DNA of 64,000 nucleotides, taken from Janthinobacterium sp. GW458P. GTDB lineage: Bacteria; Pseudomonadota; Gammaproteobacteria; Burkholderiales; Burkholderiaceae_D. The notes under the pieces were generated by a model. It saw only the letters and a list, made by a program, of their open reading frames with translations. It searched no databases and was not told the DNA's origin. How positions within the stretch are numbered: position 1 is the first letter of the stretch; each line of letters starts with the position of its first letter. The stretch is taken from the NCBI RefSeq assembly GCF_002127585.1, contig NZ_NEGZ01000001.1, positions 310,500 through 374,499 on the forward strand. The letters run 5' to 3'. Shown piece by piece: positions 37,158 to 62,731 of the stretch. A program made the position numbers and the translations under genes.

Positions 37158-38138
37158 ATGATTCCAGTTCGCCTGATCGCGACGGGCAAAGCCGTGCCCT
37201 CGCATAGCGTGACGTCCGCCAGCCTGGACCTGAAACTGGGCCACCCGCCCGGCTATACCCAGCGCAAGAGCGGCGTGCTGTCGCGCTTTGTCGCCGCACC
37301 CGACGAGTCGCAAAGCCAGCTGGGCGCCGCCGCCCTGCGCGACGCGCTGAAGAACGCCAGCCTGCGCCCGGCCGATATCGACCTCCTGATCTGCGCCTGC
37401 GGCGTGCCCGAGCAAGCCTTGCCAAACACGGCCTGCTTCGTTGCCGAACATGCCGGCTTGCCGCCAGGCACGCAAAGTTTCGACGTCAACGCCAGCTGTC
37501 TCAGCTTCATGGCCGCGTTCCGCGTGGCCGCGTCGATGCTGGCGGGCGGCGCCTACCGGCGCATCGCCATCGTCTCGTCCGATCTCGCCTCGCGCGGGGT
37601 CGACTGGAGCGAGCCGGAAGCGTCGATGATCTTCGGCGACGGCGCCGCCGCCGTCATCGTCGAGCGGGGCGATGGCAGCGCCGGCATCCGCGCCTACAAG
37701 ATGGGCACGTATCCGGAAGGGCGCCGCTACTGCGAAATCCGCGGCGGCGGCACCGAGCGCAACCCGCGCAACGGCTGCGAGCCGGGCGACTATCTGTTCC
37801 GCATGGATGGCAAGGCCGTATTCCGCCTGGCTCTCAAGGTGATGCCGGATTTCCTTGAGGAATTAATGCAGGAATCGGGCGCGGGGCTGGAAAAGGTCGA
37901 CGTGGTCGTGCCGCACCAGGCCAGCCCGCTGGGTCTCGCGCATGCGGCGCGCATTCTCGACGTTCCCGATGCTAAAATCATCAAGATCTTTGAAAACCAT
38001 GGCAACCAGGTGGCCGCGTCCCTGCCCACGGCCCTGCACGAGGCGGTAATGACGGGGCGCGCCGTGGCCGGCCAGCGTTTGCTGATGATGGGGACGGCTG
38101 CGGGCCTGACCATCGGCGGCATGATCGTCGATTTATGA
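37158..38138 (+). CDS. Beta-ketoacyl synthase III-type condensing enzyme (FabH/OleA-like)
   Basis: A 326-residue thiolase-fold enzyme. The catalytic triad is visible: Cys in DVNASCLSFMAAF, His in VVPHQASPLGL and Asn in ENHGNQVAASLPTAL. FabH normally initiates fatty acid synthesis, whereas OleA relatives condense two long acyl chains. This copy is outside any fab operon and heads a tightly packed set of lipid-modifying genes, so a dedicated role is likely. The segment ARGVDWSEPEASMIFGDGAAAVIVE is typical of KAS III. A promoter may lie in the 50 bp before the ATG. The next gene starts 10 bp after its stop. Confidence 0.85.
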   Translation: MIPVRLIATGKAVPSHSVTSASLDLKLGHPPGYTQRKSGVLSRFVAAPDESQSQLGAAALRDALKNASLRPADIDLLICACGVPEQALPNTACFVAEHAGLPPGTQSFDVNASCLSFMAAFRVAASMLAGGAYRRIAIVSSDLASRGVDWSEPEASMIFGDGAAAVIVERGDGSAGIRAYKMGTYPEGRRYCEIRGGGTERNPRNGCEPGDYLFRMDGKAVFRLALKVMPDFLEELMQESGAGLEKVDVVVPHQASPLGLAHAARILDVPDAKIIKIFENHGNQVAASLPTALHEAVMTGRAVAGQRLLMMGTAAGLTIGGMIVDL

Positions 38139-38148
38139 GGGTGAAGTG

Positions 38149-39186
38149 ATGAGGCGGATACTGGTCACGGGGGCGACGGGCGGGCTGGGGCGCAATGCCG
38201 TGCGCACCTTGCTGGCGCAGGGCGTGGAAGTGCGCGCCACCGGCCGCAATGCCGCCGTGGGCCGCGAACTGGAACGCATGGGCGCGCAGTTCGTGGCGCT
38301 TGATCTGGCGCAAGCGACGCCGCGCCAGGTCGATGAGCTGGTGCGCGGCATGGACACCGTCTGGCACTGCGCCGCGCTGTCCTCGCCGTGGGGCCCGGAG
38401 CGCGACTTCATCGCCGCCAATGTCACGGCCACGGGCCAGCTGCTGCGCGCGGCCGCCAGCCAGCACGTGGAGCGCTTCGTGCACATTTCCACCCCGGCCA
38501 TCTATTTCGATTACCACCACCGCTACGACGTGCCGGAAACCTTCCGTCCCGACGCCTTCGTCAACGCCTATGCGCGTTCCAAGGCGATGGCGGAAAAGCT
38601 GGTGCAGGAGTCGGTCGAGCGCCACAGCGGCATGACCTGCGTGATCCTGCGCCCGCGCGCCATCTTCGGCCCGCACGACCAGGTGCTGATCCCGCGCCTG
38701 GCGCGCGTGCTGCAGGAGCGCGGCGGCAAGCTGCCGCTGCCTAACGGCGGCGCGGCCACCATTGACGTCACCTATGTCGACAACGTCGTGCATGCGATGT
38801 GGCTGGCCACCGTGCACAAGACCGTGCAGTCGGGCGCCGCCTTCAACATCACGAACGGCGAGCCGGCGCGCCTGTGCGACATCCTGCGCACCTTGTTTTG
38901 CGAGCACCTGCAGCAGCCGTTCGAAATCGTCAGCATGCCGTACCGCGTGCTGGCGCTGGCGGCTCGCCTGATGCAGTTCGCCTCGCGTTTTACGCGCCGC
39001 GAACCGGCGCTGACGCCCTACAGCATCGGCGCGCTCAGTTTCGACATGACGCTCGACAGCGCCAAGGCGCGCAAGGTGCTCGGTTACCGTCCCGTCGTCA
39101 GCCTGCAGGACGGCATCGCCCGCACGGCGCAGTGGATGCGCCAGGAAGCGGCGGCGCACAAGGTGGGCAAGGAGCGCAATGGCTAG
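38149..39186 (+). CDS. NAD(P)-dependent epimerase/3beta-HSD-like dehydrogenase (OleD-like)
   Basis: A 345-residue extended short-chain dehydrogenase. The Rossmann motif is at the N-terminus (ILVTGATGGLGRNAVRTLL). The active site is YARSKAMAEKLV (Tyr-x-x-x-Lys), with an upstream Ser in VHISTPAIYFDY and substrate-loop features of the NSDHL/3beta-HSD branch (RPRAIFGPHDQVLIPRLARV). In ole-type pathways the related OleD reduces the beta-keto acid made by OleA, so reduction of the KAS III product is a reasonable guess. Start at the ATG 38149, with GTG three bases earlier also in frame. The stop overlaps the next gene by eight bases. Confidence 0.85.
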   Translation: MRRILVTGATGGLGRNAVRTLLAQGVEVRATGRNAAVGRELERMGAQFVALDLAQATPRQVDELVRGMDTVWHCAALSSPWGPERDFIAANVTATGQLLRAAASQHVERFVHISTPAIYFDYHHRYDVPETFRPDAFVNAYARSKAMAEKLVQESVERHSGMTCVILRPRAIFGPHDQVLIPRLARVLQERGGKLPLPNGGAATIDVTYVDNVVHAMWLATVHKTVQSGAAFNITNGEPARLCDILRTLFCEHLQQPFEIVSMPYRVLALAARLMQFASRFTRREPALTPYSIGALSFDMTLDSAKARKVLGYRPVVSLQDGIARTAQWMRQEAAAHKVGKERNG

Positions 39187-40009
39187 CATCACCGCGTTTC
39201 GCGTCGGCCACTGCACCCATCCGTCCTGCATGGTCCTGAAAGGCAGCGGGCTGGCCAGCCGCTGCTTCCCCTCGCGCGCCTATCTGATCGAAACGCGCGC
39301 GGGCCTGTACCTGTGGGACACCGGTTACGCCGAACACTTCCGCGCCGCCACGTCGAAAGGGGTGTACCGCATGTACGCGTGGGTTACGCCGATATCGTTT
39401 GACGAGAATGAATCGCTGCACGGCCAGCTGCGCGCGCATGGCGTATCGCCCGGCGACATCCACACCCTGCTGCTGTCGCACTTCCACGCCGACCATATCG
39501 CCGGCCTGCGCGACTTTCCCGGCGCGCGGCTGATGGCCTCCAGAACGGGCTGGGACGCCGTGCGGGGCCTGTCCGGCGTGGCCGCCGTGCGCCAGGCCTT
39601 CGTGCCCGAGCTGCTGCCGCCGGACATCGCGGATCGTCTCGATTTCGTCGAAAGCGTGCCCGAGACGGCCTTGCCGGCGGCCCTGCTGCCGTTTACGCAC
39701 GGGCGCGACGTCAGCGGCACGGGCGAAATCTACATCGTCGGCCTGCCCGGCCACGCCATCGGCCATCTGGGCGCCTTCGTGCTGCAGGACGGCGGCTGGA
39801 CCCTGCTGGCGTCCGACGCGGCCTGGGTGCCGGAAAGCTTCCAGCAGCTGCGCGGACCGTCGGAATTGTCCTTCCTCATCCAGCACAAGCGCGCGCCGTA
39901 CTTTGCCACCCTGAACCGGCTGCACCAGCTGCACCGGTCGGGCAATGCGCAGATCCGCATCACGCATGAAGATACCAACGATTATTTGCCTGTGGCGGGC
40001 CGCCCGTGA
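39179..40009 (+). CDS. MBL-fold metallo-hydrolase
   Basis: A 276-residue metallo-beta-lactamase-fold protein. The dinuclear metal site is visible: SHFHADHIAG (HxHxDH), His in GLPGHAIGHLG and Asp in LLASDAAWV, with a late His in RITHEDTND. The N-terminus AYLIETRAGLYLWDTGY is like that of AHL-lactonase relatives. In this cluster it could hydrolyse a thioester or lactone intermediate, taking the place of the alpha/beta-hydrolase OleB in ole clusters. That is inference. It overlaps the epimerase gene by eight bases and the next gene by four. Confidence 0.82.
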   Translation: MASITAFRVGHCTHPSCMVLKGSGLASRCFPSRAYLIETRAGLYLWDTGYAEHFRAATSKGVYRMYAWVTPISFDENESLHGQLRAHGVSPGDIHTLLLSHFHADHIAGLRDFPGARLMASRTGWDAVRGLSGVAAVRQAFVPELLPPDIADRLDFVESVPETALPAALLPFTHGRDVSGTGEIYIVGLPGHAIGHLGAFVLQDGGWTLLASDAAWVPESFQQLRGPSELSFLIQHKRAPYFATLNRLHQLHRSGNAQIRITHEDTNDYLPVAGRP

Positions 40010-41301
40010 AGCGTATTGTCTGGCTGTTATTGTCGTACTGGCGCACGCGCCGCCTGCATTTTGCTGACCGCGCGCAGCTGGAACGTTACCAGCAGCGGCA
40101 GCTGGCGCGTTTCGCCGATGTGCTGGGCGCGCGCAGCCGCTACTTTGCGCCATACCGGGCGTTGCCGCTCGATGCCTGGCCCACCATGAACAAGGCGCTG
40201 ATGCTCGAGCATTTCGACGCCATGAACACCGAGGGTGTGACGTTGACGCAGGCGATGGAGGCGGCCATGGCGGCCGAGCATAGCCGCGACTTCACGCCGG
40301 CCGTGGGCGACATCACGGTGGGCCTGTCGTCCGGCACCTCGTCGCGGCGCGCCGTATTTACCGTCAGCTCCCGCGAAAAGGCCCAATGGGCGGGCGTGAT
40401 GCTGGCCAAGGCGCTGCCCGACGGCCTGTTTTCCGGCGAAAAGGTGGCGCTGTTCCTGCGCGCGAACAGCAATCTGTACACGGCCGTGCGCTCGCCATGG
40501 CTGACGTTTGCCTTCTACGATCTGTTCGAACCGTTCGACAGCCTGTGCGCGCAGCTTGCGCAATATCAGGCAACTGTGATCGTCGCGCCGGCCCAGGTGC
40601 TGCGCCAGCTGGCCTTGCGTGTCATCGATGGCAGCCTGGCGCTGGCGCCGAAAAAAGTCATCTCCGTGGCCGAAGTGCTGGAAGCGCAGGACCGCGCCCT
40701 GATCGCGCAGGCGTTTGGCACCGTGCACGAGATCTACCAGGCCACCGAGGGTTTTCTTGCCAGCAGCTGCGAGCACGGCGTGCTGCACCTGAACGAGGAA
40801 TACGTGCACATCGAGCCGCAGTGGCTTGATGCGGAACAAAGGCGCTTCGTGCCCGTGATTACCGATTTTACGCGCATGACGCAGCCCATCGTGCGCTACC
40901 GCCTCGACGATATCCTGATTGCGCGCGCCACGCCATGCCCGTGCGGCCGCGCCACGCGCGCCATCGACGGCATCGAAGGACGCTGCGACGACATGCTGCT
41001 GCTTCCCTCTGCATGCGGCGGCGCCCCCGTCGCCGTGTTTGCCGACGTCCTGACGCGGGCGTTCGCGCAAGCCTTGCCGGCGGACGCCGACTACCGCCTG
41101 CTGCAGTCGGGCGACAACGCCCTGCAGCTGCATGCGGCCCTGGACGACGCGGGCCTGGCCGCCCTGCGCGCCCATCTTGACGCGGTGCTGCGCGGCCTGG
41201 GCGTGGCCGTCGACAGCCTGGCCTGGACGACGAGCGGCGAACTGCCTCCCTTTGACCCCACCATGAAACGGCGCCGCATCCGGCGCCTTGCCAGCGCATG
41301 A
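40006..41301 (+). CDS. Adenylate-forming enzyme related to coenzyme F390 synthetase/PaaK
   Basis: A 431-residue protein of the CoF-synthetase/phenylacetate-CoA-ligase branch of adenylating enzymes. The ATP-binding loop is GLSSGTSSRRAVF, followed by ATEGFLASSC and VITDFTRMTQPIVRYRLDDI with the Arg/Asp pair that contacts the ribose. A Cys-rich CPCGR follows. The ANL-type C-terminal domain is short, ending KRRRIRRL. F420 metabolism is unlikely in this organism, so it probably activates a fatty or beta-hydroxy acid. The start is GTG at 40006, overlapping the previous stop (GTGA). The substrate is unknown. Confidence 0.75.
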   Translation: MKRIVWLLLSYWRTRRLHFADRAQLERYQQRQLARFADVLGARSRYFAPYRALPLDAWPTMNKALMLEHFDAMNTEGVTLTQAMEAAMAAEHSRDFTPAVGDITVGLSSGTSSRRAVFTVSSREKAQWAGVMLAKALPDGLFSGEKVALFLRANSNLYTAVRSPWLTFAFYDLFEPFDSLCAQLAQYQATVIVAPAQVLRQLALRVIDGSLALAPKKVISVAEVLEAQDRALIAQAFGTVHEIYQATEGFLASSCEHGVLHLNEEYVHIEPQWLDAEQRRFVPVITDFTRMTQPIVRYRLDDILIARATPCPCGRATRAIDGIEGRCDDMLLLPSACGGAPVAVFADVLTRAFAQALPADADYRLLQSGDNALQLHAALDDAGLAALRAHLDAVLRGLGVAVDSLAWTTSGELPPFDPTMKRRRIRRLASA

Positions 41302-41936
41302 ATCACTCTTCCATGACTTTGACTTCCCGCCTGCTGCATTTGCTGGCCGGCTGGGGCAGCGTCGGCCTCGTGTATTTTTCCAGCGATGTGCTGCAAGGGC
41401 AGGGGGTACTCCTGCCGGAAACAGCGCTGGACCGCGCGATACCCTACACGGATGCCGCCATCTGGCTGTACCTGTCCTTCTTTCTCCTGATTCCCTACGC
41501 CTACCTGGCGGCCGACGCGGCGCGCGTGCGCTGGCTGGCGCGCGCGATGGCGCTTTCCGCGCTGGCCTGCGGCGTGGTGTTCCTGCTGTATCCGAGCACG
41601 CTCGCGTATCCGCCCGTGGGTGATGGTCATGCCTGGAGCACGCAGGCGCTGCGCCTGCTGCAGGCGGCGGACTCCGCGCAAAATTGCCTGCCCTCGCTGC
41701 ATGGCGCCCTGACATTGCTGTGCGTGTGGGCTTTATGCGACAAGCGCCACCTGCTGCGCTCCGCGCTGGCCATGCTGCTGGGCGTGGCCATCTGCTACGC
41801 CATCATCGCCCTGCGCCGGCACGTGAGCATCGACCTGGCCGCCGGCCTGGCCGTGGGCGTGGCGGGCGGCATGTTGGCGAAAATGCAGGTATTCTGGGCA
41901 GCCCGCCGCACCGTTTCCATAAAAGCCGCATCATGA
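41298..41936 (+). CDS. PAP2-like integral membrane phosphatase/transferase
   Basis: A 212-residue membrane protein with about six helices. The later two PAP2 motifs are recognisable: CLPSLHGALTLL (PS.HG) and RRHVSIDLAAG (R..H.x.D). The first motif is not obvious, as in the inositolphosphotransferase/PAP2_3 branch. These enzymes handle lipid phosphates or transfer head groups on the membrane. The start overlaps the stop of the adenylating-enzyme gene (ATGA) and its own stop overlaps the next gene. A role in head-group processing of the cluster's product is a guess. Confidence 0.75.
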   Translation: MNHSSMTLTSRLLHLLAGWGSVGLVYFSSDVLQGQGVLLPETALDRAIPYTDAAIWLYLSFFLLIPYAYLAADAARVRWLARAMALSALACGVVFLLYPSTLAYPPVGDGHAWSTQALRLLQAADSAQNCLPSLHGALTLLCVWALCDKRHLLRSALAMLLGVAICYAIIALRRHVSIDLAAGLAVGVAGGMLAKMQVFWAARRTVSIKAAS

Positions 41937-43048
41937 TGAATCCCTTTGCCCTTTCTTTCCTTGTCATGCTGGCCTTCGTGCTGGCCGAACTGCTGATCCT
42001 CAAATGGGTGCGCCAGACGCCCGTGCCGTGGAAAGACGTCGTCTTCAACCTCAATTCCGGCCATATCCTGATGTGGGTGTTCCGCGGCGTGGAAGTGGCG
42101 GCGTTCGCCCTGCTGCTGCGCCATGTGAACCTGCACCTCGTCGATCAGTGGCCCGTGGCCGCGCAATGGGCGTTCGCTTTTTTTGCCTGGGATTTGTGCT
42201 TTTACTGGATGCACCGCCTGCACCATAAAATTCCGCTGCTGTGGGCCGTGCACGTGGTGCACCACCAGGGCGAACATTTCAACCTGTCGCTGGGCGTGCG
42301 CAATTCCTGGTATTCGTCGCTGACGAATTTCCCCTTCATCGCCATCCTGGCCGTGCTGGGCGTGCCGCTGGAAATCTTCCTCGTCGTCTCGTCCCTGCAT
42401 TACACGGTGCAGTTCTACAATCACAATGCGCTGGTGAACAAGTCCGGCATCCTCGACAAATTCATGGTCACGCCCTCGCACCACCGGGTCCACCATGGCA
42501 CCGATAAACGCTACATCAACCGCAATTTCGGCGGCACCCTGTTGATCTGGGACAAACTGTTCGGCAGCTTCCAGCCCGAACTCGAGGGCGTGGAAATGCG
42601 CTATGGCGTGAAGGGCATGACACCCACGCACAATCCGCTGCTGGCCAGCAACGGCAAACTGTTCAAGTGGCTGCGCGCGCGCTTTCCCCACTGGCAGTCG
42701 CGCGGCACTTTCGAGGTGCCCGAGCTGTTCATCGGCATCGGCGGCGTGATCCTGTTTGGCCTGGTGATCTATTACGTCAACCACGAAGCGGTGCTGGCCG
42801 GCGCGCAGCAGGCCATCCTGTTCGCGCTGATCTTTGGCGGCACGCTGGCGCTGGGCGGCCTGTCGGACGCGCGCCGCTGGGGCGCCATCGCCTGGGTGCT
42901 CATCGCCTTCGCCATGCCCGTGCTGTTCCTCGGCTGGTATGGCGCGCGCGACGCGTGGGGCATGGTGTTTTTGGCCGCGCTGCTGGCGCATGGCTTCGAT
43001 GGCGCGCGCCGCCTGTGGTGGCCGGCCGCGGCGGGGACGCGCGCGTGA
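41933..43048 (+). CDS. Sterol-desaturase/fatty-acid-hydroxylase family membrane oxygenase
   Basis: A 371-residue di-iron membrane enzyme. The eight-histidine signature is complete: YWMHRLHHKIP, HVVHHQGEHFNLSLGVR and SHHRVHHGTDK, followed by the conserved NRNFGGTLLIWDKLFGSF. The arrangement is like alkylglycerol monooxygenase relatives. It would hydroxylate or cleave a lipid chain. The C-terminal roughly 110 residues add four more helices. The start ATG at 41933 overlaps the PAP2 stop. A longer upstream frame runs antiphase through the PAP2 gene and is rejected. Confidence 0.85.
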   Translation: MMNPFALSFLVMLAFVLAELLILKWVRQTPVPWKDVVFNLNSGHILMWVFRGVEVAAFALLLRHVNLHLVDQWPVAAQWAFAFFAWDLCFYWMHRLHHKIPLLWAVHVVHHQGEHFNLSLGVRNSWYSSLTNFPFIAILAVLGVPLEIFLVVSSLHYTVQFYNHNALVNKSGILDKFMVTPSHHRVHHGTDKRYINRNFGGTLLIWDKLFGSFQPELEGVEMRYGVKGMTPTHNPLLASNGKLFKWLRARFPHWQSRGTFEVPELFIGIGGVILFGLVIYYVNHEAVLAGAQQAILFALIFGGTLALGGLSDARRWGAIAWVLIAFAMPVLFLGWYGARDAWGMVFLAALLAHGFDGARRLWWPAAAGTRA

Positions 43049-44151
43049 GCCAGCTTCCCCCGCTGCGCTTTCAGCCCGCCCGCGATTCCGCCTTCCGCCG
43101 CGAACTGCGCGCGCGCGCCGATGCCTACCTGGCGGCCGAGGGAAAACACCGCTTTGGCGATGCGCGCCTGCATGCGAAAACCGTCTTCCTGGCCGCCCTG
43201 ACGGCGGGGCTGTATGCGCTGGCCTTGAGCGCCGGCAGCACCTGGCCGTTTGTCGCTGCCTATGTCGCCTGCCTGGTGGCGGCCATGACGCTGGCCATGA
43301 ATACCCTGCACGACGCGGCCCACAGCGCCGTCTTCCGCCAGGGACGCCTGAATCGCATCCTGATCCGCCTGGTGGGCTTGCCCGTGGGCGTGGACACGGA
43401 TTTCTGGACCATCCGCCATGTGCACTTTCATCACACGTATGCCAACGTGGAAGGCTATGACCTCGACACGGAACCGAACCCTTTCCTGCGCCAGACGCCG
43501 TTTCAACGCTGGTCGCCCCAGTACCGCTATCAATACCTGTACTGGCCCGTGGTGGCGGCCCTGTCGCTGCCTTACCTGAACTGGTATGGCGACTGGCTGG
43601 ACCGCTTCGGCAAGACGCCCGTGGCCGCGCACAGCCGCCTGCAGGGCTGGCGCGGCTGGCTGTCGTTCCTGGGCTGGAAGGTGGGCCACGTGGCGCTGGT
43701 GCTGGCGCTGCCCATGTGGGTGCTGCAGCAGCACGGCATCGGCTGGGGCGTGGTGCTGGGCGCGTATTTCCTGGGCCAGATGCTCGCCTCGTGCGCGCTG
43801 GTGGCGCTGATTCTCGGCACGCACTGGGCCGAAGTGGAATTTTTCCAGCCGGGCCAGGACGGCACCTTGCCGCACGACTGGTACCAGCACACGTTTTACA
43901 CGGCCTGCGACTGGACGCCGAAACCGCGCGCGCTGCGCTGGCTCGGCTACTGGCTCGGCGGCCTGAATCTGCACCTGACGCACCATTTGTTCCCTACCTG
44001 GAGCCACCGCCACTACCCGGCGCTGGCGCGCATCCTGGCCGAACTGGCGCCGCGCCACGGCCTCGTCTACCGCGAACTGGGCTACGGCCAGCTGCACGCC
44101 TCGCAGCAAGCCTTCCTGCGCGCCATGGGCCAGCCGCCGACACAGTCCTGA
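43045..44151 (+). CDS. Acyl-lipid/acyl-CoA fatty acid desaturase
   Basis: A 368-residue membrane di-iron desaturase. Three histidine boxes are present: HDAAHS, HVHFHHTYANVEGYD and HLTHHLFPTWSH. Four hydrophobic helices lie around them. It introduces a double bond into a fatty chain, with electrons supplied by an unseen ferredoxin or cytochrome. The start is GTG at 43045, overlapping the previous stop. The open frame extends upstream, but those residues belong to the sterol-desaturase gene in another frame. It is the last gene of the tightly packed seven-gene run. The GbsR-type regulator follows after 186 bp with its own promoter. Confidence 0.87.
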   Translation: MSQLPPLRFQPARDSAFRRELRARADAYLAAEGKHRFGDARLHAKTVFLAALTAGLYALALSAGSTWPFVAAYVACLVAAMTLAMNTLHDAAHSAVFRQGRLNRILIRLVGLPVGVDTDFWTIRHVHFHHTYANVEGYDLDTEPNPFLRQTPFQRWSPQYRYQYLYWPVVAALSLPYLNWYGDWLDRFGKTPVAAHSRLQGWRGWLSFLGWKVGHVALVLALPMWVLQQHGIGWGVVLGAYFLGQMLASCALVALILGTHWAEVEFFQPGQDGTLPHDWYQHTFYTACDWTPKPRALRWLGYWLGGLNLHLTHHLFPTWSHRHYPALARILAELAPRHGLVYRELGYGQLHASQQAFLRAMGQPPTQS

Positions 44152-44161
44152 TGAATCGTGC

Positions 44162-44207
44162 TTGACTGGGTTTCTCTTCTGTCTTACATTTCTGTAACGA
44201 CAGAAAT
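44162..44207 (+). promoter_or_regulatory. Sigma-70 promoter with overlapping perfect operator for the GbsR-type gene
   Basis: TTGACT (44162-44167) and TACATT (44185-44190) with a 17-bp spacer make a strong promoter. A perfect inverted repeat, ATTTCTGT (44188-44195) and ACAGAAAT (44200-44207) with spacer AACG, covers the end of the -10 and the start point. Another TTCTGT lies in the spacer (44177-44182). The position fits repression by the MarR/GbsR-type protein encoded downstream. The identity of the binder is inferred. Confidence 0.7.
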
Positions 44208-44218
44208 AAGAGAAAATC

Positions 44219-44344
44219 ATGAAATCAAGAACGCCTGACAGAACCGTAGCGAGCGGCAGTGATTTGTGGCCGAGAAGCGCAGCTGTGCTTGAGCACAGTG
44301 AGCATCGCAGACCGCAAAGCGCGACGCGGAGTAGATTATGGTAG
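44219..44344 (+). CDS. Possible 41-codon leader reading frame before the GbsR-type gene
   Basis: Within the leader of the GbsR-type gene an ATG preceded by AAGAGAAAATC opens a 41-codon frame (starts MKSRTPDRTV, ends RSRLW) that stops at TAG 44342-44344, just inside the regulator's ATG (44338). Such overlap would couple translation. The peptide has no recognisable domain. The same stretch contains a perfect hairpin (CTGTGC/GCACAG near 44283-44298), so the region may matter as RNA rather than protein. Confidence 0.35.
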   Translation: MKSRTPDRTVASGSDLWPRSAAVLEHSEHRRPQSATRSRLW

Positions 44345-44898
44345 GCGTTCTGAGTCCGACGACGCAGAAATATATTCTGCACTGGGGGGAAATGGGCACC
44401 CGCTGGGGCGTCAACCGCACGGTGGCGCAGATCCACGCGCTGCTGTTCCTGGCCAATGAACCGCTGACGGCGGAAGACATCGCGGCCAGCCTGAACGTGG
44501 CCCGCTCGAACGTCAGCAACAGCCTGAAGGAATTGCAAAGCTGGGGCCTGGTGCGCATCACGCACGTGATGGGGGACCGGCGCGACCATTTCGTCGCCCT
44601 GCAGGATGTGTGGGAAATCTTCCGCGTCATCATGGAAGAGCGCAAGCGGCGCGAGATCGACCCCACGCTGACGGTGCTGCGCGAGTGCGCGATCGAGGGC
44701 GAGCATGATGCGGCGATACCGCCGGCCACCCTGGAGCGCATGGGCGAGGTGCTGGCCTTCCTGGAAATGCTCAGCTCCACCTACAGCGACTATAAAAACC
44801 TGCCGCCGGCGACCCTGCAGCGCATGCTGTCGATGGGCGGCAAGGTGGCCAAGTTCCTCAGCCCGGACGACAAGCCGGGCAAGCCGGGAAAAACATGA
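44338..44898 (+). CDS. GbsR/MarR-family transcriptional regulator
   Basis: A 186-residue regulator of the GbsR branch of MarR-like winged helices. The DNA-binding domain covers about 25-95 (VAQIHALLFLANEPLTAEDIAASLNVARSNVSNSLKELQSWGLV, then the wing THVMGDRRDHFVAL). A helical C-terminal dimerisation part follows. GGAG precedes the ATG. It overlaps the DUF4166 gene by four bases. Its promoter carries a perfect inverted repeat, so autorepression is likely. Given its place between the two halves of the lipid cluster it is the probable local regulator of both. GbsR itself senses choline in Bacillus. The ligand here is unknown. Confidence 0.82.
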   Translation: MVGVLSPTTQKYILHWGEMGTRWGVNRTVAQIHALLFLANEPLTAEDIAASLNVARSNVSNSLKELQSWGLVRITHVMGDRRDHFVALQDVWEIFRVIMEERKRREIDPTLTVLRECAIEGEHDAAIPPATLERMGEVLAFLEMLSSTYSDYKNLPPATLQRMLSMGGKVAKFLSPDDKPGKPGKT

Positions 44899-45539
44899 AC
44901 GGCCCGTCCGAAGGGGAGCTGTTCAAGAAGGTCATGGGCGAGCAGTGGCTCGCCCTGCACCCGGACATCCGCCGCCGCTTCGAGAAAAATCCCGCGCCGG
45001 GCCAGCCCCTGTATTACCGGGGCGAGCTCAGTGAACTCACGAGTTCGCGCCTGGGCAAGGTGCTGGGCTGGCTCACGCGTCCCTTCATCGACGGCGCCCT
45101 GATCCCGCATGACGATCACGACTTCCCCGTCGATATCGAAGTGTATTCGCGCCCCGGCTGTCCCTTCATCTTCAAGCAGCGCACCTACCGCCTGCACGGG
45201 CGCGCGCCGATCCGCTTCACGTCCTACATGGCGGAAAGCGCAACAGGCGAAGTGCTCGAATACGTGGGCATGGGCCTGGGCATGAAGCTGGTCCTGCACG
45301 TCGAGGATGGCAACCTGCATTTCACCAGCGACGGCTATTTTTGGGATCTTTTCGGCTGGCGCATGCCGCTGCCCGGCGTGCTCACGCCCGGCAAGACCTA
45401 TCTGTGCCACCGCAACGATACGCCGCAGCAGTTCAACATCCGCATCGAGATCCGCCACGCCCTGTTCGGCACCACGTTTACCCAGGTCGGCGTGTTCCGC
45501 GAGTCCGCCGCGCCGGGAATTCACAAGGAGACACCATGA
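44895..45539 (+). CDS. DUF4166 domain protein
   Basis: A 214-residue protein with no signal or membrane helix. It shows the DUF4166 pattern: GEQWLALHPDIRRRFEKNP near the start, YRGELSELTSSRLGKVLGWL, VDIEVYSRPGCPFIFKQRTY and HFTSDGYFWDLFGWRMPLPG. The family is functionally uncharacterised. Its members commonly sit next to TIGR01777/SDR oxidoreductases and DoxX-like membrane proteins, as here. The beta-rich composition could suit a lipid-binding barrel. It overlaps both neighbours by four bases. Confidence 0.82.
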   Translation: MNGPSEGELFKKVMGEQWLALHPDIRRRFEKNPAPGQPLYYRGELSELTSSRLGKVLGWLTRPFIDGALIPHDDHDFPVDIEVYSRPGCPFIFKQRTYRLHGRAPIRFTSYMAESATGEVLEYVGMGLGMKLVLHVEDGNLHFTSDGYFWDLFGWRMPLPGVLTPGKTYLCHRNDTPQQFNIRIEIRHALFGTTFTQVGVFRESAAPGIHKETP

Positions 45540-46999
45540 ATACGCATCTGCTGGCACTGCAACTGATGGCGGCGCAAGGCTGCCTGGGCGCCTTCGACAC
45601 CATCTACCACCATGAAATCACGGAAGCGCTGCCGCAAAAAGCCTCGGCGCGCCTGGAACTGACCATCCATGCCACGCGCGCGCTGATCTACAGCCTGCTG
45701 TTCGTCGGCCTGGCCGCCTGGGAGTGGCACGGTGCCTGGGCCTGGGTGCTGGTGATCGTGTTTGGCGTGGAAATCGTGCTCACCCTGTGGGACTTCGTTG
45801 TGGAAGATCAAACCCGCCTCTTGCCCGCCACGGAGCGGGTCACGCATACGGTGCTGGCGATCAACGCGGGCGCCTTCATCGCCCTGCTGGCCTTGAACAG
45901 CAGCGAATGGGCGAGCTTGCCGACGGCCCTCGTGTGGCGGCCGTATGGCTGGCTCAGCGTCTTCCTCGCCCTGTGCGGCGTGGGCGTGGGCCTGTCCGGC
46001 CTGCGCGACGCGTATGCCGTGTGGCAGCTGGGCCGGCGCAAGGTGCAGGAGACAGCGGAGCAGGAGGAGCGCCTAAGCTTTGCCGCCGCGCCGCAGTCCG
46101 TGCTGGTGACGGGCGCCACGGGTTTCATCGGCCAGCAGCTGGTCAGCGCCCTGCTGGCCGACGGCCACGCGGTGACGGTGCTGACGCGCCAGCCCAAGCA
46201 GGCCGCGTGGACCTTCGACGGCCAGGTGCGCTGCATCGACTCGCTGGACGCATTGTCGGAGGCGCAGCGCATCGACATGGTGGTCAACCTGGCCGGCGCG
46301 CGCATCGTCGGCAAGCGCTGGACGCCAGCGCGCAAGGCGGCCCTGCGCCGCAGCCGGGTGGCGCTGACGCAGGACCTGGTGGCCTGGATCGCGCGCGCGC
46401 AGCACAAGCCGAGGGTGCTGCTGTCGGCGTCGGCCATCGGCTATTACGGCGTGCAGCCGCAGGGAGACGCCACGGAATTGACGGAGGACAGTGCCCCGCA
46501 AGCCATCTTCATGTCGCAGCTGTGCCAGGAATGGGAGGCGGCCGCGCGCCAGGCGGAGCAATATGGCGTGCAGGTGGGCCGCCTGCGCTTCGGCCTCGTC
46601 TTCGGCCACCAGGGTTCGCTGCCGCAGATGCTGCTGCCGATCCGCTTCGGCGTGGGCGGCCCGCTCGGCAGCGGCAGGCAGTGGGTCACCTGGGTGCATG
46701 TGCGCGACGTCATCCGCGGCATTGCCCACCTGGCGCGCCGCAGCGAAGACCATGCGGTGAACGGCGCATATAACTTCTGCGCCCCGGACGCCATCGAACA
46801 GCGCCGCTTCGCCCAGGTGGCGGGCGCCGTGCTGCACCGGCCCGCCTTCATGCCCATGCCGGCGTGGCTCATGCGCGCCTTGCTGGGCGAGCAGGCTGAC
46901 CTGCTGGTGGAAGGCCAGCGGGTCGCCCCGCGCCGCCTGCTGGCCGACGGATTTAGCTTCCGCTATCCGCAGCTGGAAGGGGCGCTGCGCAGCCTGTAG
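45536..46999 (+). CDS. TIGR01777-family (YfcH/SDR39U1) oxidoreductase fused to an N-terminal membrane domain
   Basis: A 487-residue protein. The first roughly 165 residues form about four membrane helices beginning NTHLLALQLMAAQGCLGAFDTIYHHE. An atypical short-chain dehydrogenase of the TIGR01777 type starts near residue 185 (SVLVTGATGFIGQQLVSALL). It has NLAGARIVGKRWT, LLSASAIGYYG and the FRFGLVFG-like GRLRFGLVFGHQGSLPQML. AAGGAG lies before the ATG at 45536. The open frame upstream is rejected because it runs through the DUF4166 gene. It is probably a membrane-bound reductase acting on the same lipid substrate as the cluster upstream. Confidence 0.83.
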   Translation: MNTHLLALQLMAAQGCLGAFDTIYHHEITEALPQKASARLELTIHATRALIYSLLFVGLAAWEWHGAWAWVLVIVFGVEIVLTLWDFVVEDQTRLLPATERVTHTVLAINAGAFIALLALNSSEWASLPTALVWRPYGWLSVFLALCGVGVGLSGLRDAYAVWQLGRRKVQETAEQEERLSFAAAPQSVLVTGATGFIGQQLVSALLADGHAVTVLTRQPKQAAWTFDGQVRCIDSLDALSEAQRIDMVVNLAGARIVGKRWTPARKAALRRSRVALTQDLVAWIARAQHKPRVLLSASAIGYYGVQPQGDATELTEDSAPQAIFMSQLCQEWEAAARQAEQYGVQVGRLRFGLVFGHQGSLPQMLLPIRFGVGGPLGSGRQWVTWVHVRDVIRGIAHLARRSEDHAVNGAYNFCAPDAIEQRRFAQVAGAVLHRPAFMPMPAWLMRALLGEQADLLVEGQRVAPRRLLADGFSFRYPQLEGALRSL

Positions 47000-47042
47000 C
47001 CTGGCGTAGAATGGGCCATTGGGATGCCTTGGAGCACAATCT

Positions 47043-48431
47043 ATGCCCCGCTTCAGCCATACGATAGACAGCCATGTTTACCAGTTTGCCAGCCTGAAGG
47101 AGCTGCTGGCCAAGGCCACGCCGCCGCGTTCGGGCGACGTGCTGGCCGGGGTGGCGGCCGCCAGCGCGCGCGAGCGGGTGGCGGCGCAGCTGGCGCTGGC
47201 CGAGGTACCGTTGTCGGCCTTCCTCAATGAGGCGCTGGTGCCGTATGAAGACGATGAAGTCACGCGCCTGATCGTCGACACCCACGAGCGCGCCGCCTTT
47301 GCGCCGATCTCCCACCTGTGCGTGGGCGACTTTCGCGACTGGCTGCTGGACGACGCGACGGACACGCCCACGCTGTCGCAGGTGGCCGCCGGCATCACGC
47401 CGGAAATGGCGGCCGCCGTCTCGAAAATCATGCGCCTGCAGGACCTGGTGCTGGTAGCCCGCAAGTGCCGTGTCGTCACGGCTTTGCGCAATACCCTGGG
47501 CCTGGAAGGGCGTCTGTCCGCGCGCTTGCAGCCGAATCATCCGACGGATGACGCCACGGGGATTGCCGCGTCGATGCTTGACGGCCTGCTGCTGGGCAGC
47601 GGCGACGCCGTGATCGGCATCAATCCCGCCACCGACAATGTGGCGCAGGTGATGTCGCTGCTGCAGCTGCTCGACGCCGTCATAGCTCAATATCAGATTC
47701 CCACGCAGTCCTGCGTGCTGACGCACATCACCAACACGATCGAAGCGATACGCCGCGGCGCGCCCGTCGACCTGGTGTTCCAGTCGGTGGCGGGCACGCA
47801 GGCGGCCAACCGCAGCTTCGGCATCGACCTGGCGCTGCTGGCCGAGGGCCGGGCGGCGGCCCTGTCGCTGGGGCGCGGCACGGTGGGCAACAACGTCATG
47901 TATTTCGAGACGGGGCAGGGCAGCGCCCTGTCGGCCGGCGCCCACCACGGCATGGATCAGCAGACGTGCGAGGCGCGCGCCTATGCGGTGGCGCGCGCCT
48001 TTCAGCCGCTGCTGGTCAATTCCGTGGTGGGCTTCATCGGCCCCGAATACCTGTACGACGGCAAGCAGATCATGCGCGCGGGGCTGGAAGACCATTTCTG
48101 CGCCAAGTTATTGGGTTTGCCCATGGGCTGCGACGTGTGCTACACCAACCATGCGGAAGCGGACCAGGACGACATGGACGCCTTGCTGACCATGCTGGGC
48201 GTGGCCGGCTGCAATTTCATCATGGGCGTGCCGGGCGCGGACGACATCATGCTCGGCTACCAGAGTACCTCGTTCCACGACGCCCTGTATGCGCGCCGCG
48301 TGCTGGGTTTGCGCCCTGCGCCCGAATTCGAAGCCTGGCTGGCGCGCATGCAGATCACGGATGCGCAGGGAAATCTGAACGTGGCGCTGGCGCCGGCCTT
48401 CCAGGCGGCCCTGCTGCGCCTGGGCGGCTAG
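47043..48431 (+). CDS. eutB: Ethanolamine ammonia-lyase large subunit
   Basis: A 462-residue coenzyme B12-dependent enzyme subunit that splits ethanolamine into acetaldehyde and ammonia. EutB signatures include SLKELLAKATPPRSGDVLAGVAA at the N-terminus, LQPNHPTDDATGIAASMLDGLLLGSGDAVIGINP, FQSVAGTQAANRSFG and MYFETGQGSALSAGAHHGMDQ. The ATG at 47043, with GGAG nine bases before it, was chosen over a TTG eight codons earlier. eutC follows after nine bases. No microcompartment or reactivase gene lies next to it in the window. Confidence 0.93.
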   Translation: MPRFSHTIDSHVYQFASLKELLAKATPPRSGDVLAGVAAASARERVAAQLALAEVPLSAFLNEALVPYEDDEVTRLIVDTHERAAFAPISHLCVGDFRDWLLDDATDTPTLSQVAAGITPEMAAAVSKIMRLQDLVLVARKCRVVTALRNTLGLEGRLSARLQPNHPTDDATGIAASMLDGLLLGSGDAVIGINPATDNVAQVMSLLQLLDAVIAQYQIPTQSCVLTHITNTIEAIRRGAPVDLVFQSVAGTQAANRSFGIDLALLAEGRAAALSLGRGTVGNNVMYFETGQGSALSAGAHHGMDQQTCEARAYAVARAFQPLLVNSVVGFIGPEYLYDGKQIMRAGLEDHFCAKLLGLPMGCDVCYTNHAEADQDDMDALLTMLGVAGCNFIMGVPGADDIMLGYQSTSFHDALYARRVLGLRPAPEFEAWLARMQITDAQGNLNVALAPAFQAALLRLGG

Positions 48432-48440
48432 GGAGGATAC

Positions 48441-49214
48441 ATGGACAAGAATATACCGAGGCAAACGCTGCGCGCGCATACGGCGGCGCGCATCGCGCTG
48501 GGGCGCAGCGGCGTGAGCGTGCCGACCCGCGCGCAGCTGGCGTTCCAGCTGGCCCACGCGCAGGCGCGCGATGCCGTGCACGCGGCGCTCGATGGCGAGG
48601 CCCTGGCGCGCGACTTGGCCGCGCAGGGGCAAGCCTGCGTGCCCCTGCACAGCGCCGCCGCCACGCGTGCCATCTACCTGCAACGCCCCGACCTGGGACG
48701 CCGGCTCGACGACGTATCACGGGCGCGCCTGACCGGAAATAGCAAGGGCGTGGACCTGGCGCTGGTGGCGGCCGACGGCCTGTCGGCGCTGGCCGTGCAG
48801 CGCCACGCGGCGCCCTTCCTGGCCGCTTTGCGCGCACGGCTGGCGCTGGAGGCGTGGACGTTGTCGCCGCTATACATCGTGGCGCAGGGCCGGGTCGCCG
48901 TTGGCGACGAGGTGGGGGAATTGATCAAAGCGCGGGCCGTGCTGGTGCTGATCGGCGAGCGGCCGGGCTTGAGTTCCCCGGACAGCCTGGGCCTGTACCT
49001 GACGTGGGCGCCCAAAGCAGGCTTGCTGGACGAGCGCCGCAACTGCATCTCGAACGTGCGCCCGGAAGGCCTGGCATATGCGCCGGCCGCGTACCGGCTG
49101 CATTATTTGCTGTCGCAGGCATTTACCCGGCAGTTGTCGGGCGTGGACTTGAAGGATGAAACGGTGGCAGAGGGCGCGGCCCTGGCGGGCGCGCGCAATT
49201 TCCTGCTGGCGTGA
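48441..49214 (+). CDS. eutC: Ethanolamine ammonia-lyase small subunit
   Basis: A 257-residue subunit that binds adenosylcobalamin with EutB. Family features are [52 protein letters not shown]-like [21 protein letters not shown], and [22 protein letters not shown] ribosome site precedes the ATG, nine bases after the eutB stop. The stop codon abuts that of the convergent tsaD with no bases between them. Confidence 0.93.
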
Positions 49215-58725: not shown

Positions 58726-60966
58726 GTGCCAATCAAGAAACCCGAATCCAAAGCGGCTGCAAAGCCCACCAAAGTTACCACGAAAGCCGAAAAGGCGCTC
58801 GACCGGCCCGAAGCGCGCGTCACCAGCGCGCCCGTGGTCAGCCAGACCACCGACGCCGCCACCCTGGCAGCCATCGATACGTCCGGTTATGTCTTGCCAT
58901 CGGTAAAGGTGCCAGGCCGCCGCGGCCGCAAGCCAAAAGAATTCCAGCCAGAAAATGATGAAGTCGCCGCCCTGAACGCCGTCGAGCGGGCCGAACTGAA
59001 GGCCGTCGACAAGGCCAAGGCCAAGGACCGCAAGGCCAAGGAGCGCGCGCTGCTGAAAGACGCGTTCTCGTCCGACACGGAAGCGAGCGAGGAAGAACTC
59101 GAGCGCCGGCGCCAGAAACTCAAGACCCTGATCAAGTTCGGCAAGGAACGCGGTTTCCTGACGTATGCGGAAATCAACGATCACTTGCCCGAAAACATCG
59201 TCGATCCGGAAGCCATCGAAGGCATCATCGGTACCTTCAATGACATGGGCATCGCCGTCTACGAACACGCGCCGGACGCGGAAACGTTGTTGCTGTCCGA
59301 TAACGTTGCCGTCGTCACCAGCGACGACGAGGCGGAAGCGGCGGCCGAGGCCGCATTGTCGACCGTCGACTCCGATTTCGGCCGCACCACCGACCCCGTG
59401 CGCATGTACATGCGCGAGATGGGCTCGGTCGAGCTGCTGACGCGCGAAGGCGAGATCGAGATTGCCAAGCGCATCGAAGATGGCTTGAAAGACATGATCC
59501 AGGCCATTTCCGCCTGTCCCGTGACGATCGCCGAGATCATCGCCGCCGCCGACCGCATCGCCAACGAAGAGATCAAGATCGACGAAATCGTCGACGGTCT
59601 CGTCGATGAGAACGAACCGGTCGCCGCCGCCCCTGTCGTGGCCGCGCCCGTCGAGGAAGACGAGGAAGAGGGCGAAGCGGAAGAAGAGGAAGAAGAGGAA
59701 GAGGAAGAAGCGAGCGCTTCGGGCGCCGCCGGTTTCTCCGCTGAACAGCTGGAAACCCTGAAACGCACGGCGCTGGAAAAATTCGCCGTCATTTCGCAGC
59801 AATTCGACCGCATGCGCCGCGCCTTCGAGAAGGAAGGCTACAACTCCAAGCCCTACGCCAAGGCGCAGGAAGCCATTTCGCAAGAGTTGCTGGGCATCCG
59901 CTTCACCGCCAAGGTGGTGGAAAAGCTGTGCGACACCCTGCGCGGCCAGGTGGACGAAGTGCGCCATATCGAGAAACAGATCCTCGACGTGGCCGTGAAC
60001 CGCTGCGGCATGCCGCGCGCCCACTTCATCAAGGTCTTCCCCGGCAATGAAACCAACCTCGATTGGGTCGATGGCGAAGTCAACGCAGGACACGCCTACA
60101 GCGCCATCCTGGGCCGCAACATTCCAACCGTCAAGGAACTGCAGCAGCGCCTGATCGACCTGCAGGCGCGCGTCGTGCTGCCGCTGCCGGACTTGCGTAA
60201 CATCAATCGCCAGATGGCGGCCGGTGAAATGAAGGCGCGCAAGGCCAAGCGCGAAATGACGGAGGCCAACTTGCGCCTGGTCATTTCGATCGCCAAGAAA
60301 TACACGAACCGGGGCCTGCAATTCCTCGATTTGATCCAGGAAGGCAATATCGGCCTGATGAAGGCCGTCGACAAGTTCGAGTACCGCCGCGGCTACAAGT
60401 TCTCGACGTATGCCACCTGGTGGATCCGCCAGGCGATTACCCGTTCGATCGCCGACCAGGCGCGCACGATCCGCATTCCCGTGCACATGATCGAGACGAT
60501 CAACAAGATGAACCGGATTTCCCGCCAGATCCTTCAGGAAACAGGCGCGGAACCCGATCCGGCCACCCTGGCGATCAAGATGGAGATGCCCGAGGACAAG
60601 ATCCGCAAGATCATGAAAATCGCCAAGGAACCGATCTCGATGGAAACGCCGATCGGCGACGACGACGATTCCCACCTGGGCGACTTCATCGAGGACAACA
60701 ACACCCTGGCCCCGGCCGACGCAGCGCTGCACGCGTCCATGCGGGGCGTGGTCAAGGACGTGCTCGATTCCCTGACGCCACGCGAAGCGAAAGTGCTGCG
60801 CATGCGTTTCGGCATCGAAATGTCCACCGACCACACGCTGGAAGAAGTGGGCAAGCAATTTGACGTGACGCGCGAGCGCATCCGCCAGATCGAAGCGAAG
60901 GCGCTGCGCAAGCTGCGCCACCCATCGCGCTCCGACAAGCTGAAAAGCTTCTTGGAAGGCAACTAG
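58726..60966 (+). CDS. rpoD: RNA polymerase primary sigma factor (sigma-70)
   Basis: A 746-residue sigma factor. A Lys/Ala-rich N-terminal extension comes before region 1.1 ([24 protein letters not shown]). Region 1.2 is [28 protein letters not shown]. The non-conserved region has a long Glu-rich run (about residues 307-327). Region 2 is [25 protein letters not shown], then [15 protein letters not shown]. Regions 3 and 4 end with [22 protein letters not shown]. The start is GTG at 58726. Only four sense codons lie between it and an upstream stop. The Shine-Dalgarno site is weak (GAAAG). Confidence 0.95.
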
Positions 60967-61076: not shown

Positions 61077-61400
<324 letters not shown>

Positions 61401-61425
61401 AGTTATTTCCTGTTTGCAATTTACA

Positions 61426-61478
61426 CGTTTGGACAATATTATGTGTTTGTCCAAACGCGCAAATGCTTGTCCGTTTGG
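61426..61478. promoter_or_regulatory. Repeated operator sites between phage repressor and structural operon
   Basis: CGTTTGGACA (61426-61435) is repeated inverted as TGTCCAAACG (61448-61457), 22 bp apart centre to centre, two helical turns. A related TTGTCCGTTTGG follows at 61467-61478. The sites overlap a likely -10 of the repressor gene and a possible -35 (TTGTCC, 61467-61472) of the rightward operon. This is the arrangement expected for a phage switch. The binder is inferred. Confidence 0.6.
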
Positions 61479-61638
61479 GTAAGTAAACGATAGCACATCT
61501 AGGTTGAATGTAAACCGCTCAGTCTCCGGCCCACGGGCCGCCTGTTTGCCCACTGGTACGCCTTGGGAGGTTTTTTCGGCTGCTGATCCGTGCAAAACAC
61601 AATCGCTCTAGCGGGCGACTTACTCCAAGGAAAAGACC

Positions 61639-61980
61639 ATGAAAAACACTATCCAAATTTTGCACGTCACCCAAGTGGCTGGCCGTTCGAAAAAAACCGG
61701 CAATGACTACGATATGCGCATGGCGCAATGCATCGTCCATAAGCCAAACCGCGATACCGGCGTCATCGAGCCGTTAATCGGTGAGCTGGTCTTGCCGGAG
61801 CGCTTCAAAGATACGCAACCGGGCATGTATGAGGTTGAGTTCGAAGTGTCGATCTCGCAGGACAAACGTGTCGGCGCGCAGGTCTTTTCTATCACTCCAA
61901 TTTCCGCTGCTTCCCAAGCAAAACACGCTGCAGCGGCTCCCGCCGTCAAAGCGAACCCAGGTCAACAAGCCGCCTCGTAA
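61639..61980 (+). CDS. Phage single-stranded-DNA-binding protein (gpV-like)
   Basis: A 113-residue protein in the position of gene V of filamentous phages, just before the small coat-associated genes. The core (IQILHVTQVAGRSKKTGNDYDMRMAQCIV, then IGELVLPERFKDTQPGMYEVEFEVSISQDKRVGAQVFSI) suits an OB-fold ssDNA-binding protein, and the C-terminal Ala-rich tail is flexible. It would coat the single-stranded genome and switch replication to packaging. AAGGAAAAG lies before the ATG. The assignment rests mostly on position and size. Confidence 0.75.
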   Translation: MKNTIQILHVTQVAGRSKKTGNDYDMRMAQCIVHKPNRDTGVIEPLIGELVLPERFKDTQPGMYEVEFEVSISQDKRVGAQVFSITPISAASQAKHAAAAPAVKANPGQQAAS

Positions 61981-61986
61981 TTTCCC

Positions 61987-62220
61987 ATGCCTTCCTGCGT
62001 CGATTCCACACAAATGACCGGGCCGGATGCTCCGTCCGGTGCCGTGCTGTACACGGTGTCTAGCGCTCCTACTGAGTTGGCTGCATGTGCCTATGTGGTT
62101 GAGTCAGGCCCTGAGTATGTGGCTGCTGTGGCGGCGCAGGAAAAGGCTGTTGATATATTTTTTGTGGCGGCGGTGGTGGTGCTGTTCGCGTTGGGCTGGA
62201 TTGCAGGGGCGCAACGATGA
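61987..62220 (+). CDS. Small phage membrane protein
   Basis: A 77-residue protein with a polar first half and one clear membrane helix near the C-terminus (IFFVAAVVVLFALGWIAG), starting six bases after the ssDNA-binding gene. No domain is recognised by name. Similar single-helix proteins occur at this place in many beta- and gammaproteobacterial inoviruses, where minor virion proteins are encoded. It overlaps the next frame by four bases. Confidence 0.7.
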   Translation: MPSCVDSTQMTGPDAPSGAVLYTVSSAPTELAACAYVVESGPEYVAAVAAQEKAVDIFFVAAVVVLFALGWIAGAQR

Positions 62221-62710: not shown

Positions 62711-62731
62711 TTCGTCGGCGTTCGGGCGTAC

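Follow-up and report, generated by a model that had tools for sequence, protein, structure and literature searches.

In the Pseudomonas quinolone signal (PQS)/alkylquinolone route, the ligase PqsA acts together with PqsD, a condensing enzyme of the β-ketoacyl synthase (KAS) III type, and with PqsE, a thioesterase with a metallo-β-lactamase (MBL) fold. In ole clusters (OleABCD), a condensing enzyme of the thiolase superfamily is combined with an extended short-chain dehydrogenase/reductase (SDR) and an adenylating enzyme. Condensation of two acyl chains by a bacterial KAS III-like enzyme is also known from the photopyrone and pseudopyronine synthases PpyS and PyrS, whose catalytic base is a Glu (E105 in PpyS, according to PMC4578411). 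CorB and MxnB, from the corallopyronin and myxopyronin pathways, join β-keto chains delivered by polyketide synthase (PKS)/nonribosomal peptide synthetase megasynthetases (available text of PMC5724707). Here, we describe a locus that shares features with each of these systems. It lies in a stretch of 64,000 nucleotides of the soil bacterium Janthinobacterium sp. GW458P (contig NZ_NEGZ01000001.1, positions 310,500 to 374,499), referred to as the window, and positions below are those of the window. We judge the chances to be about even that positions 37158-44151 encode a seven-gene lipid natural-product pathway whose distribution is patchy and which probably spread by horizontal transfer, with four enzymes as its core and three membrane enzymes for tailoring.

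CorB and MxnB are the closest solved relatives of the cluster KAS, and like this enzyme they lack the catalytic Glu. However, the cluster adds an SDR, an MBL-fold hydrolase, a ligase and membrane oxidases, and its seven genes contain neither a PKS module nor a carrier protein gene. PpyS and PyrS differ by their Glu base, since the cluster KAS carries Leu or Ile at the corresponding OleA Glu position. With the PQS route the cluster shares the logic of a ligase, a KAS III enzyme and an MBL-fold hydrolase, but that route has no counterpart to the SDR and the membrane oxidases, and PqsD, the sole PQS enzyme compared directly, is distant (85 bits). The likeness to ole clusters lies in the condensing enzyme superfamily, a distantly OleD-like extended SDR and an adenylating enzyme, whereas a TIGR02304 protein stands in for the OleC family, OleB is missing, an MBL hydrolase and membrane oxygenases are added, and the KAS lacks the Glu and belongs to another clade. 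The cluster ligase is a full-length member of the TIGR02304 family, which is here tied to a recurring neighborhood. The enzyme families themselves are known; new are their combination, their spread, and a CorB/MxnB-like KAS in a non-PKS setting. The seven genes are:

37158..38138, + strand: KAS III-type condensing enzyme, core 1, 326 amino acids, CorB/MxnB-like group; Cys114-His253-Asn283, Leu88, no OleA/PpyS Glu
38146..39186, + strand: extended SDR, core 2, Epimerase/3Beta_HSD, distantly OleD/HpnA-like, predicted ketone reductase; Tyr142/Lys146 conserved
39179..40009, + strand: MBL-fold hydrolase, core 3, by sequence closest to AiiA-type lactonases among solved proteins; HxHxDH plus H192, D213 and H263
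40006..41301, + strand: TIGR02304 F390-synthetase-related (PaaK-like) adenylate-forming enzyme, core 4; Lys421 invariant
41298..41936, + strand: PAP2_3 membrane phosphatase/phosphotransferase, tailoring; S133, H135, R174, H175 and D179 invariant in 81 rows
41933..43048, + strand: FA_hydroxylase (sterol-desaturase family) membrane oxygenase, tailoring; His motifs intact
43045..44151, + strand: fatty acid desaturase, tailoring; GTG start, three His boxes intact

A first-pass annotation, made from the DNA sequence, had read these genes and the three that follow them as a single ten-gene lipid locus at 37158-46999. All ten reading frames are open and intact at these positions, and the tight packing reported for the first seven was borne out: KAS and SDR are separated by 7 nt, SDR and MBL share 8 nt, and MBL/F390, F390/PAP2, PAP2/hydroxylase and hydroxylase/desaturase overlap by 4 nt each. 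The ten genes are all under purifying selection (dN/dS 0.06-0.37 in three same-genus comparisons). The lipid-type assignment and the coherence of the first seven genes, which are kept together in beta- and gammaproteobacteria, held up, while the last three genes turned out to form a separate operon, as discussed below.

The TIGR02304 gene was searched for in 195 genomes of the family and 398 genomes of the phylum, with the window's own genome counted in each set, and was found above the cut-off in 17 and 7 genomes, respectively. Within the genus it was present in 12 of 13 genomes, the exception being G190. Regions of 20 kb, one of them shortened by a contig end, were fetched around 25 hits, which comprised all 22 other above-cut-off genomes and the next three below, with weaker hits excluded. 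In all 25 regions, the KAS, SDR, MBL and TIGR02304 genes were found in the same order and on the same strand. Eleven of these regions are same-genus loci that contain all ten genes, and G415, G525 and G565 also carry the PAP2, hydroxylase and desaturase genes beside the core. A further sample, from named genomes, was formed by the best 80 of at least 576 confirmed relatives. Because the ranking followed similarity to a query from gammaproteobacteria, the sample leans toward that group, and at least five of the 80 are the same genomes as in the fetched regions. Neighbors were counted on the strand of the TIGR02304 gene and up to 6.5 kb away from it, loci cut by contig ends included. In these named loci, the four-gene core was found 77 times and the complete set of seven 54 times (KAS 77, SDR 79, MBL 79, PAP2 64, hydroxylase 59 and desaturase 57 of 80), compared to 3 for GbsR and 4 each for DUF4166 and TIGR01777. 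The conserved order in 25 of 25 regions, together with the joint presence in 77 of 80 loci, indicates that the association is not due to chance. The KAS-SDR-MBL-TIGR02304 core is a recurring unit in hosts that range from Bacillota to gammaproteobacteria. This gives the TIGR02304 family a recurring partner set.

The seven genes occur together in Enterobacterales, Pseudomonas and Burkholderiales, with the full set in Serratia, Pectobacterium, Pseudomonas and Ralstonia, and the four-gene core in Xenorhabdus and Snodgrassella. In comparisons between pairs of loci, the identities of the four core proteins are closely correlated with one another (r 0.92-0.94, 109-111 loci, host descent included). 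In L118 and L133, no KAS was detected in the 6.5 kb around the TIGR02304 gene, and the desaturase gene is located upstream of the core in L133, L135, L136, L139 and L141. Some of the incomplete loci sit at contig ends (e.g., L084, L119, L143 and L147). The core is also found on plasmids, both in Rhodobacterales and in the Bacillota Paenibacillus urinalis and Pontibacillus, and in these Bacillota plasmid cores an annotated ATP-grasp gene lies between KAS and SDR. In the KAS tree described below, the Snodgrassella enzyme was placed among Enterobacterales rows, at an open node, which is a hint of transfer.

The first four genes are thus the core, and the tailoring genes that neighbor it vary. PAP2-hydroxylase-desaturase is the commonest core extension among the named loci examined. 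In L098 (by Pfam) and L116 (by eye), the core is accompanied instead by another SDR, a glycosyltransferase of the GT21 type, a protein of 190 aa and a protein resembling glycosyltransferases, the last one a weak assignment (UDPGT just above and EryCIII-like below cut-off). An acyltransferase/AMP-binding fusion adjoins the core in L141 and a 1037-aa AMP-binding protein in L146. L064 carries a Rieske oxygenase and two proteins without Pfam hits, which profile matches connect with the proteins annotated as ATP-grasp and GNAT in L157 and L162. Such a common core with exchangeable decoration has the look of a natural-product pathway. A second core architecture, recognized partly by eye, contains an ATP-grasp-like protein (L063-L066, L071-L074, L157, L159 and L162), with a GNAT-like protein in L064, L066, L157 and L162, and a Rieske oxygenase in L064, L072-L074 and L162. 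This is perhaps a sister orphan pathway.

The spread of the cluster includes well-studied strains. The TIGR02304 gene was found in 672 of 5426 complete Escherichia coli genomes, approximately 1 in 8, and 671 of the 5426, Nissle 1917 among them, carry 80% or more of the seven-gene stretch, so that the cluster is nearly always whole in carriers (671/672). By record, 102 copies are at least 99% identical, 568 are 95-99% identical and 2 are 90-95% identical. In CFT073 (L163, 6200-13081), the seven genes lie between narI and tRNA-Tyr/purU, a site that is empty in K-12 MG1655, where narI and the tRNA-Tyr genes are separated by ychS, rttR and tpr alone. Among carriers this location was examined in CFT073 and in strain KE48 (L156, NZ_CP141085.1), where the cluster has the same neighbors. 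The KE48 record is 386 kb long and labeled as a plasmid, yet the cluster is surrounded there by narGHJI, purU, rssAB, galU and hns, genes that are chromosomal elsewhere in E. coli; this perhaps reflects assembly or labeling. We take the carriers Nissle, CFT073, LF82 and ABU 83972 to belong to phylogroup B2.

The first-pass annotation knew of no described pathway with this gene set, and our searches of the open-access literature found none either: among the open-access papers listed by full-text searches, judged by title and abstract, none was recognizably about the cluster, and the open-access search on TIGR02304 found no tested function for the family. The available part of PMC2649909 mentions an F390-synthetase-annotated gene in type II fatty acid synthesis clusters of Desulfotalea, which is a different setting. 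An apparently undescribed, conserved seven-gene pathway in hundreds of E. coli, Nissle 1917 and CFT073 among them, would be a clear gap in the chemistry of well-studied bacteria, and the broad spread makes its product worth finding.

Family calls were made with Pfam and NCBIfam models. The KAS matches ACP_syn_III domains, and its best NCBIfam model is PRK07204 (NF005541), with 338.1 bits against a cut-off of 402; in a scan with NF005541, the cluster KAS of four genomes topped the list, none of them at cut-off. The scores with the FabH model TIGR00747 (209.5 bits) and with PRK09258 (115.5 bits) were below the respective cut-offs of 292.1 and 285. Among PDB sequences, CorB (194.8 bits) and MxnB (194.2) came first, followed by FabH at 160.6 and lower, PqsD at 85 and OleA at about 59. 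The AlphaFold2 model (mean predicted local distance difference test score 88.8, predicted template modeling score 0.89) again retrieved CorB and MxnB first (36% and 35% identity, template modeling (TM) score 0.91-0.93), with many FabH entries next at a similar TM score of 0.87-0.91 and PqsD also among the neighbors.

A phylogeny of the KAS against FabH and OleA, as suggested in the first-pass annotation, was calculated from 83 rows: 40 cluster enzymes chosen from the loci, 37 FabH, 4 OleA-like, CorB and MxnB. The cluster enzymes fell outside both reference groups, with FabH separate at 99/98 and the OleA-like rows at 100/100, and were joined on one side by CorB and MxnB (support 90/90), which branch beside two Bacillota rows at an unresolved node. 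The Cys-His-Asn triad, already recognized as intact in the window's copy, was present in 40 of 40 cluster enzymes (Cys114-His253-Asn283). As reported in the available text of PMC4578411, the catalytic bases are E117 in OleA, which reaches the active site of its neighbor, and E105 in PpyS, while MxnB and CorB have Val there. At this position, all 40 cluster enzymes have Leu or Ile, CorB and MxnB have Val, all 37 FabH have Phe or Tyr, and all four OleA-like (PRK09258) rows have Glu. The latter are presumably OleA, since an OleD-like SDR neighbors the gene in two of three fetched loci (L255 and L256, not L257). G32, N111 (37/40) and S256 are common to the cluster KAS and CorB/MxnB. The condensing enzyme is thus not OleA-like, and sequence, tree and predicted fold suggest that it groups with CorB/MxnB, which would place such an enzyme outside PKS antibiotic pathways. 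Separately, contig C56 of the window's own genome (41814-44088) carries two more adjacent KAS III-type genes outside the cluster, possibly another biosynthetic locus.

Catalytic residues are conserved in the other six enzymes as well. The SDR (Epimerase/3Beta_HSD) retains Tyr142 and Lys146 in 111 of 111 rows. OleD is its best NCBIfam match, but the OleD likeness stated in the first-pass annotation is only distant (171.9 bits against an equivalog cut-off of 580). The hydrolase belongs to Lactamase_B, and its nearest relatives by sequence are AiiA-type lactonases and 4-pyridoxolactonase; lactonases are listed among the 23 matches and none is named PqsE. Counted over rows above the score thresholds, with rows below excluded, the canonical Zn ligands of the MBL enzyme are invariant (112 rows), the catalytic residues of the PAP2_3 protein are kept (81 rows), and the His boxes are invariant in FA_hydroxylase (76 rows) and FA_desaturase (74 rows). 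A PDB sequence search gave no match for either the desaturase or the hydroxylase. The adenylating enzyme clears the TIGR02304 cut-off over its full length (491.4 bits against 251.9), gave no match in the Pfam search, and retains Lys421 in 114 of 114 rows. By sequence and fold its relatives are the PaaK-family enzymes NatL2, AjiA1, ClxA and PaaK, although the fold matches have TM scores of only about 0.5-0.6 and a large root mean square deviation, and the superposition covers part of the fold.

Based on these families and conserved residues, a possible series of reactions can be drawn up, in which the order, substrates and product are predictions. The KAS would join or extend thioester-bound chains from fatty acid synthesis to give a β-keto product; a carrier protein gene is not among the seven. 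The SDR would then reduce the ketone, and the MBL enzyme would hydrolyze a thioester or lactone to release a free hydroxy acid, which the PaaK-like enzyme could adenylate and hand on to form an ester, amide or thioester. In the membrane, the desaturase and hydroxylase would oxidize the chain, and the PAP2 protein may remove or transfer a phosphate-bearing head group. The outcome would be a hydroxylated, unsaturated lipid, which other hosts might glycosylate or couple to amines instead. MxnB itself condenses two β-keto chains to an α-pyrone and takes carrier protein- or N-acetylcysteamine (NAC)-bound thioesters, as described in the available text of PMC5724707. Membership of the chain-joining CorB/MxnB group would imply a two-chain hydroxy-lipid scaffold. 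Tentatively, and with less confidence than in the seven-gene pathway as such, we propose a lipid class not described before, made by a pathway that spread horizontally (about one-eighth of complete E. coli, many other Enterobacterales, Pseudomonas and Burkholderiales), with an α-branched or pyrone-like two-chain hydroxy-lipid scaffold, and with cassette exchange giving oxidized (PAP2/hydroxylase/desaturase), glycosylated (GT21) or amine-coupled (ATP-grasp/GNAT) products.

Several observations weigh against a single, conserved seven-gene lipid pathway. One or more of the seven genes are missing from 26 of the 80 named loci, in part because of contig ends, and some loci contain only the core, which stands alone or with other tailoring genes in Xenorhabdus, Snodgrassella, Buttiauxella and Leminorella. 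Frame-split copies occur (KAS in L083, MBL in L122 and SDR, in two frames, in L074), and plasmid pMPPla107 of P. amygdali has TIGR02304 without other core genes nearby. The identities of core and tailoring proteins are more loosely correlated (r 0.65-0.91), and shared host descent adds to all of these correlations. NatL2, AjiA1 and PaaK, the closest AMP-ligase folds, act on aromatic acids, so that a pure lipid product fits less well. The reaction order was deduced, and substrate and product were predicted, from the sequences. Finally, the 90/90 support for the grouping with CorB/MxnB is under the 95/80 mark of the tool, and as further references the tree contains only FabH from Pseudomonadota and four OleA-like rows, without PpyS. 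The published tree in the available part of PMC4578411 has MxnB and CorB inside the FabH clade, and that of PMC5724707, as far as available, places MxnB between FabH-like and chalcone synthase-type enzymes, both unlike our small tree.

The lactonase-like hydrolase and the aromatic-type fold of the ligase would be compatible with a lactone or an aryl step. In an unlikely but still sizable alternative, the PaaK-like ligase would activate an aromatic or short acid, as in the PQS route, the KAS III would condense this with a malonyl or fatty chain, the MBL enzyme would act as thioesterase, the SDR would reduce the ketone, and the membrane enzymes would oxidize an aryl- or pyrone-headed lipid. The kinship of the ligase to NatL2, AjiA1, ClxA and PaaK, and the appearance of PqsD among the structural neighbors of the KAS, agree with this. 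However, PqsD scores far under CorB/MxnB and FabH, the nearest relatives of the hydrolase are lactonases, with none of the 23 matches named PqsE, and the FA_hydroxylase and FA_desaturase point to a long chain.

An ole-type cluster, whose logic the first-pass annotation had recognized in the order of condensation, reduction and activation, seems improbable. It would account for the OleD match of the SDR and the lactonase-like MBL enzyme, and the adenylating enzyme could in principle form a β-lactone. The absence of OleB and OleC, which had been pointed out from the start, was confirmed, since the ten proteins include neither an α/β-hydrolase OleB nor a PF00501 OleC, and the SDR is far from the OleD cut-off. 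At the condensing step the analogy was rejected, based on the tree, the position of the catalytic Glu and the family cut-offs: the enzyme has Leu or Ile where OleA has Glu, and the tree places it outside the OleA-like clade, on the side of CorB/MxnB. Somewhat less probable still is that the KAS is an ordinary decarboxylating FabH-type enzyme that feeds a membrane-fluidity system, in which the cluster would alter the acyl chains of bulk phospholipids and yield no metabolite of its own. Its FabH-like fold with a Cys-His-Asn triad would fit, and the desaturase and hydroxylase could act on phospholipids, but the enzyme falls outside the FabH clade and below the FabH cut-off, and the adenylating enzyme, MBL hydrolase and SDR are kept together while bulk modification would not need them.

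The notion that all ten genes form one GbsR-controlled pathway is the least probable, although all 11 same-genus loci that were fetched have them in a single order and the whole block is absent from the same-genus genome G190, because the last three genes occur without the seven and the seven without the last three. These genes, and a candidate operator in front of them, are:

44188..44207, no strand: perfect 8-nt inverted repeat ATTTCTGT-N4-ACAGAAAT, candidate operator, 5' of GbsR and outside the seven-gene cluster
44338..44898, + strand: GbsR/MarR-type regulator, gene 1 of the separate three-gene operon
44895..45539, + strand: DUF4166 protein, gene 2 of the separate operon
45536..46999, + strand: TIGR01777 membrane oxidoreductase, gene 3 of the separate operon

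The regulator matches MarR_2, with CudC as closest NCBIfam model, below its cut-off; the second protein matches Pfam DUF4166, and the third scores 320 bits with TIGR01777 (cut-off 207). A gap of 186 nt separates the desaturase gene from GbsR, after which GbsR/DUF4166 and DUF4166/TIGR01777 overlap by 4 nt each. DUF4166 was found in 39 of 195 family genomes, and 12 of these loci were fetched from Oxalobacteraceae outside the genus. GbsR, DUF4166 and TIGR01777 occur together in six of them and DUF4166 with TIGR01777 in two; of the remainder, two have only DUF4166 by profiles and two (L194 and L204) gave no profile match. Profiles detected no protein of the seven-gene cluster at any of the 12, and in G067, G111 and G192 the DUF4166 locus and the core are on different contigs. 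Conversely, CFT073 and 76 of the 80 named loci carry cluster genes without GbsR-DUF4166-TIGR01777, and the Janthinobacterium locus L152 lacks a GbsR match. A gene-order search had been set beforehand as the test of the single ten-gene unit, and since the ten are not kept together outside the genus, this unit was rejected. Because the three genes stand without the seven elsewhere, and the seven without the three, GbsR-DUF4166-TIGR01777 (44338-46999) is a separate operon that adjoins the cluster in Janthinobacterium. In G190 the whole 37158-49214 block is missing, EutB/EutC included, and an ion channel gene adjoins tsaD; a search for EutB in this genome, run without a control, gave no match. Since this loss includes EutB/EutC, it neither links the ten genes nor separates seven from ten. 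The gap before GbsR holds three inverted pairs, ATTTCTGT-N4-ACAGAAAT among them, and an inverted repeat was looked for upstream of KAS and none was found. With a palindrome only before GbsR, the evidence for control of the seven genes by GbsR is weak, and we make no claim on their regulation.

Directly 3' of the ten genes lie genes that by eye resemble EutB/EutC (ethanolamine ammonia-lyase, 47019-49214). Toward the end of the window, past a sigma-70-like gene (58726-60966), the GC content drops to 0.57 and then to 0.51 (61098-64000). Judged by eye from the translations, this part encodes a small protein resembling an inovirus single-stranded DNA-binding protein (61639-61980) and another with TDPTKP/GGTP repeats that looks secreted (62768-63994), and it is perhaps the start of a filamentous prophage.

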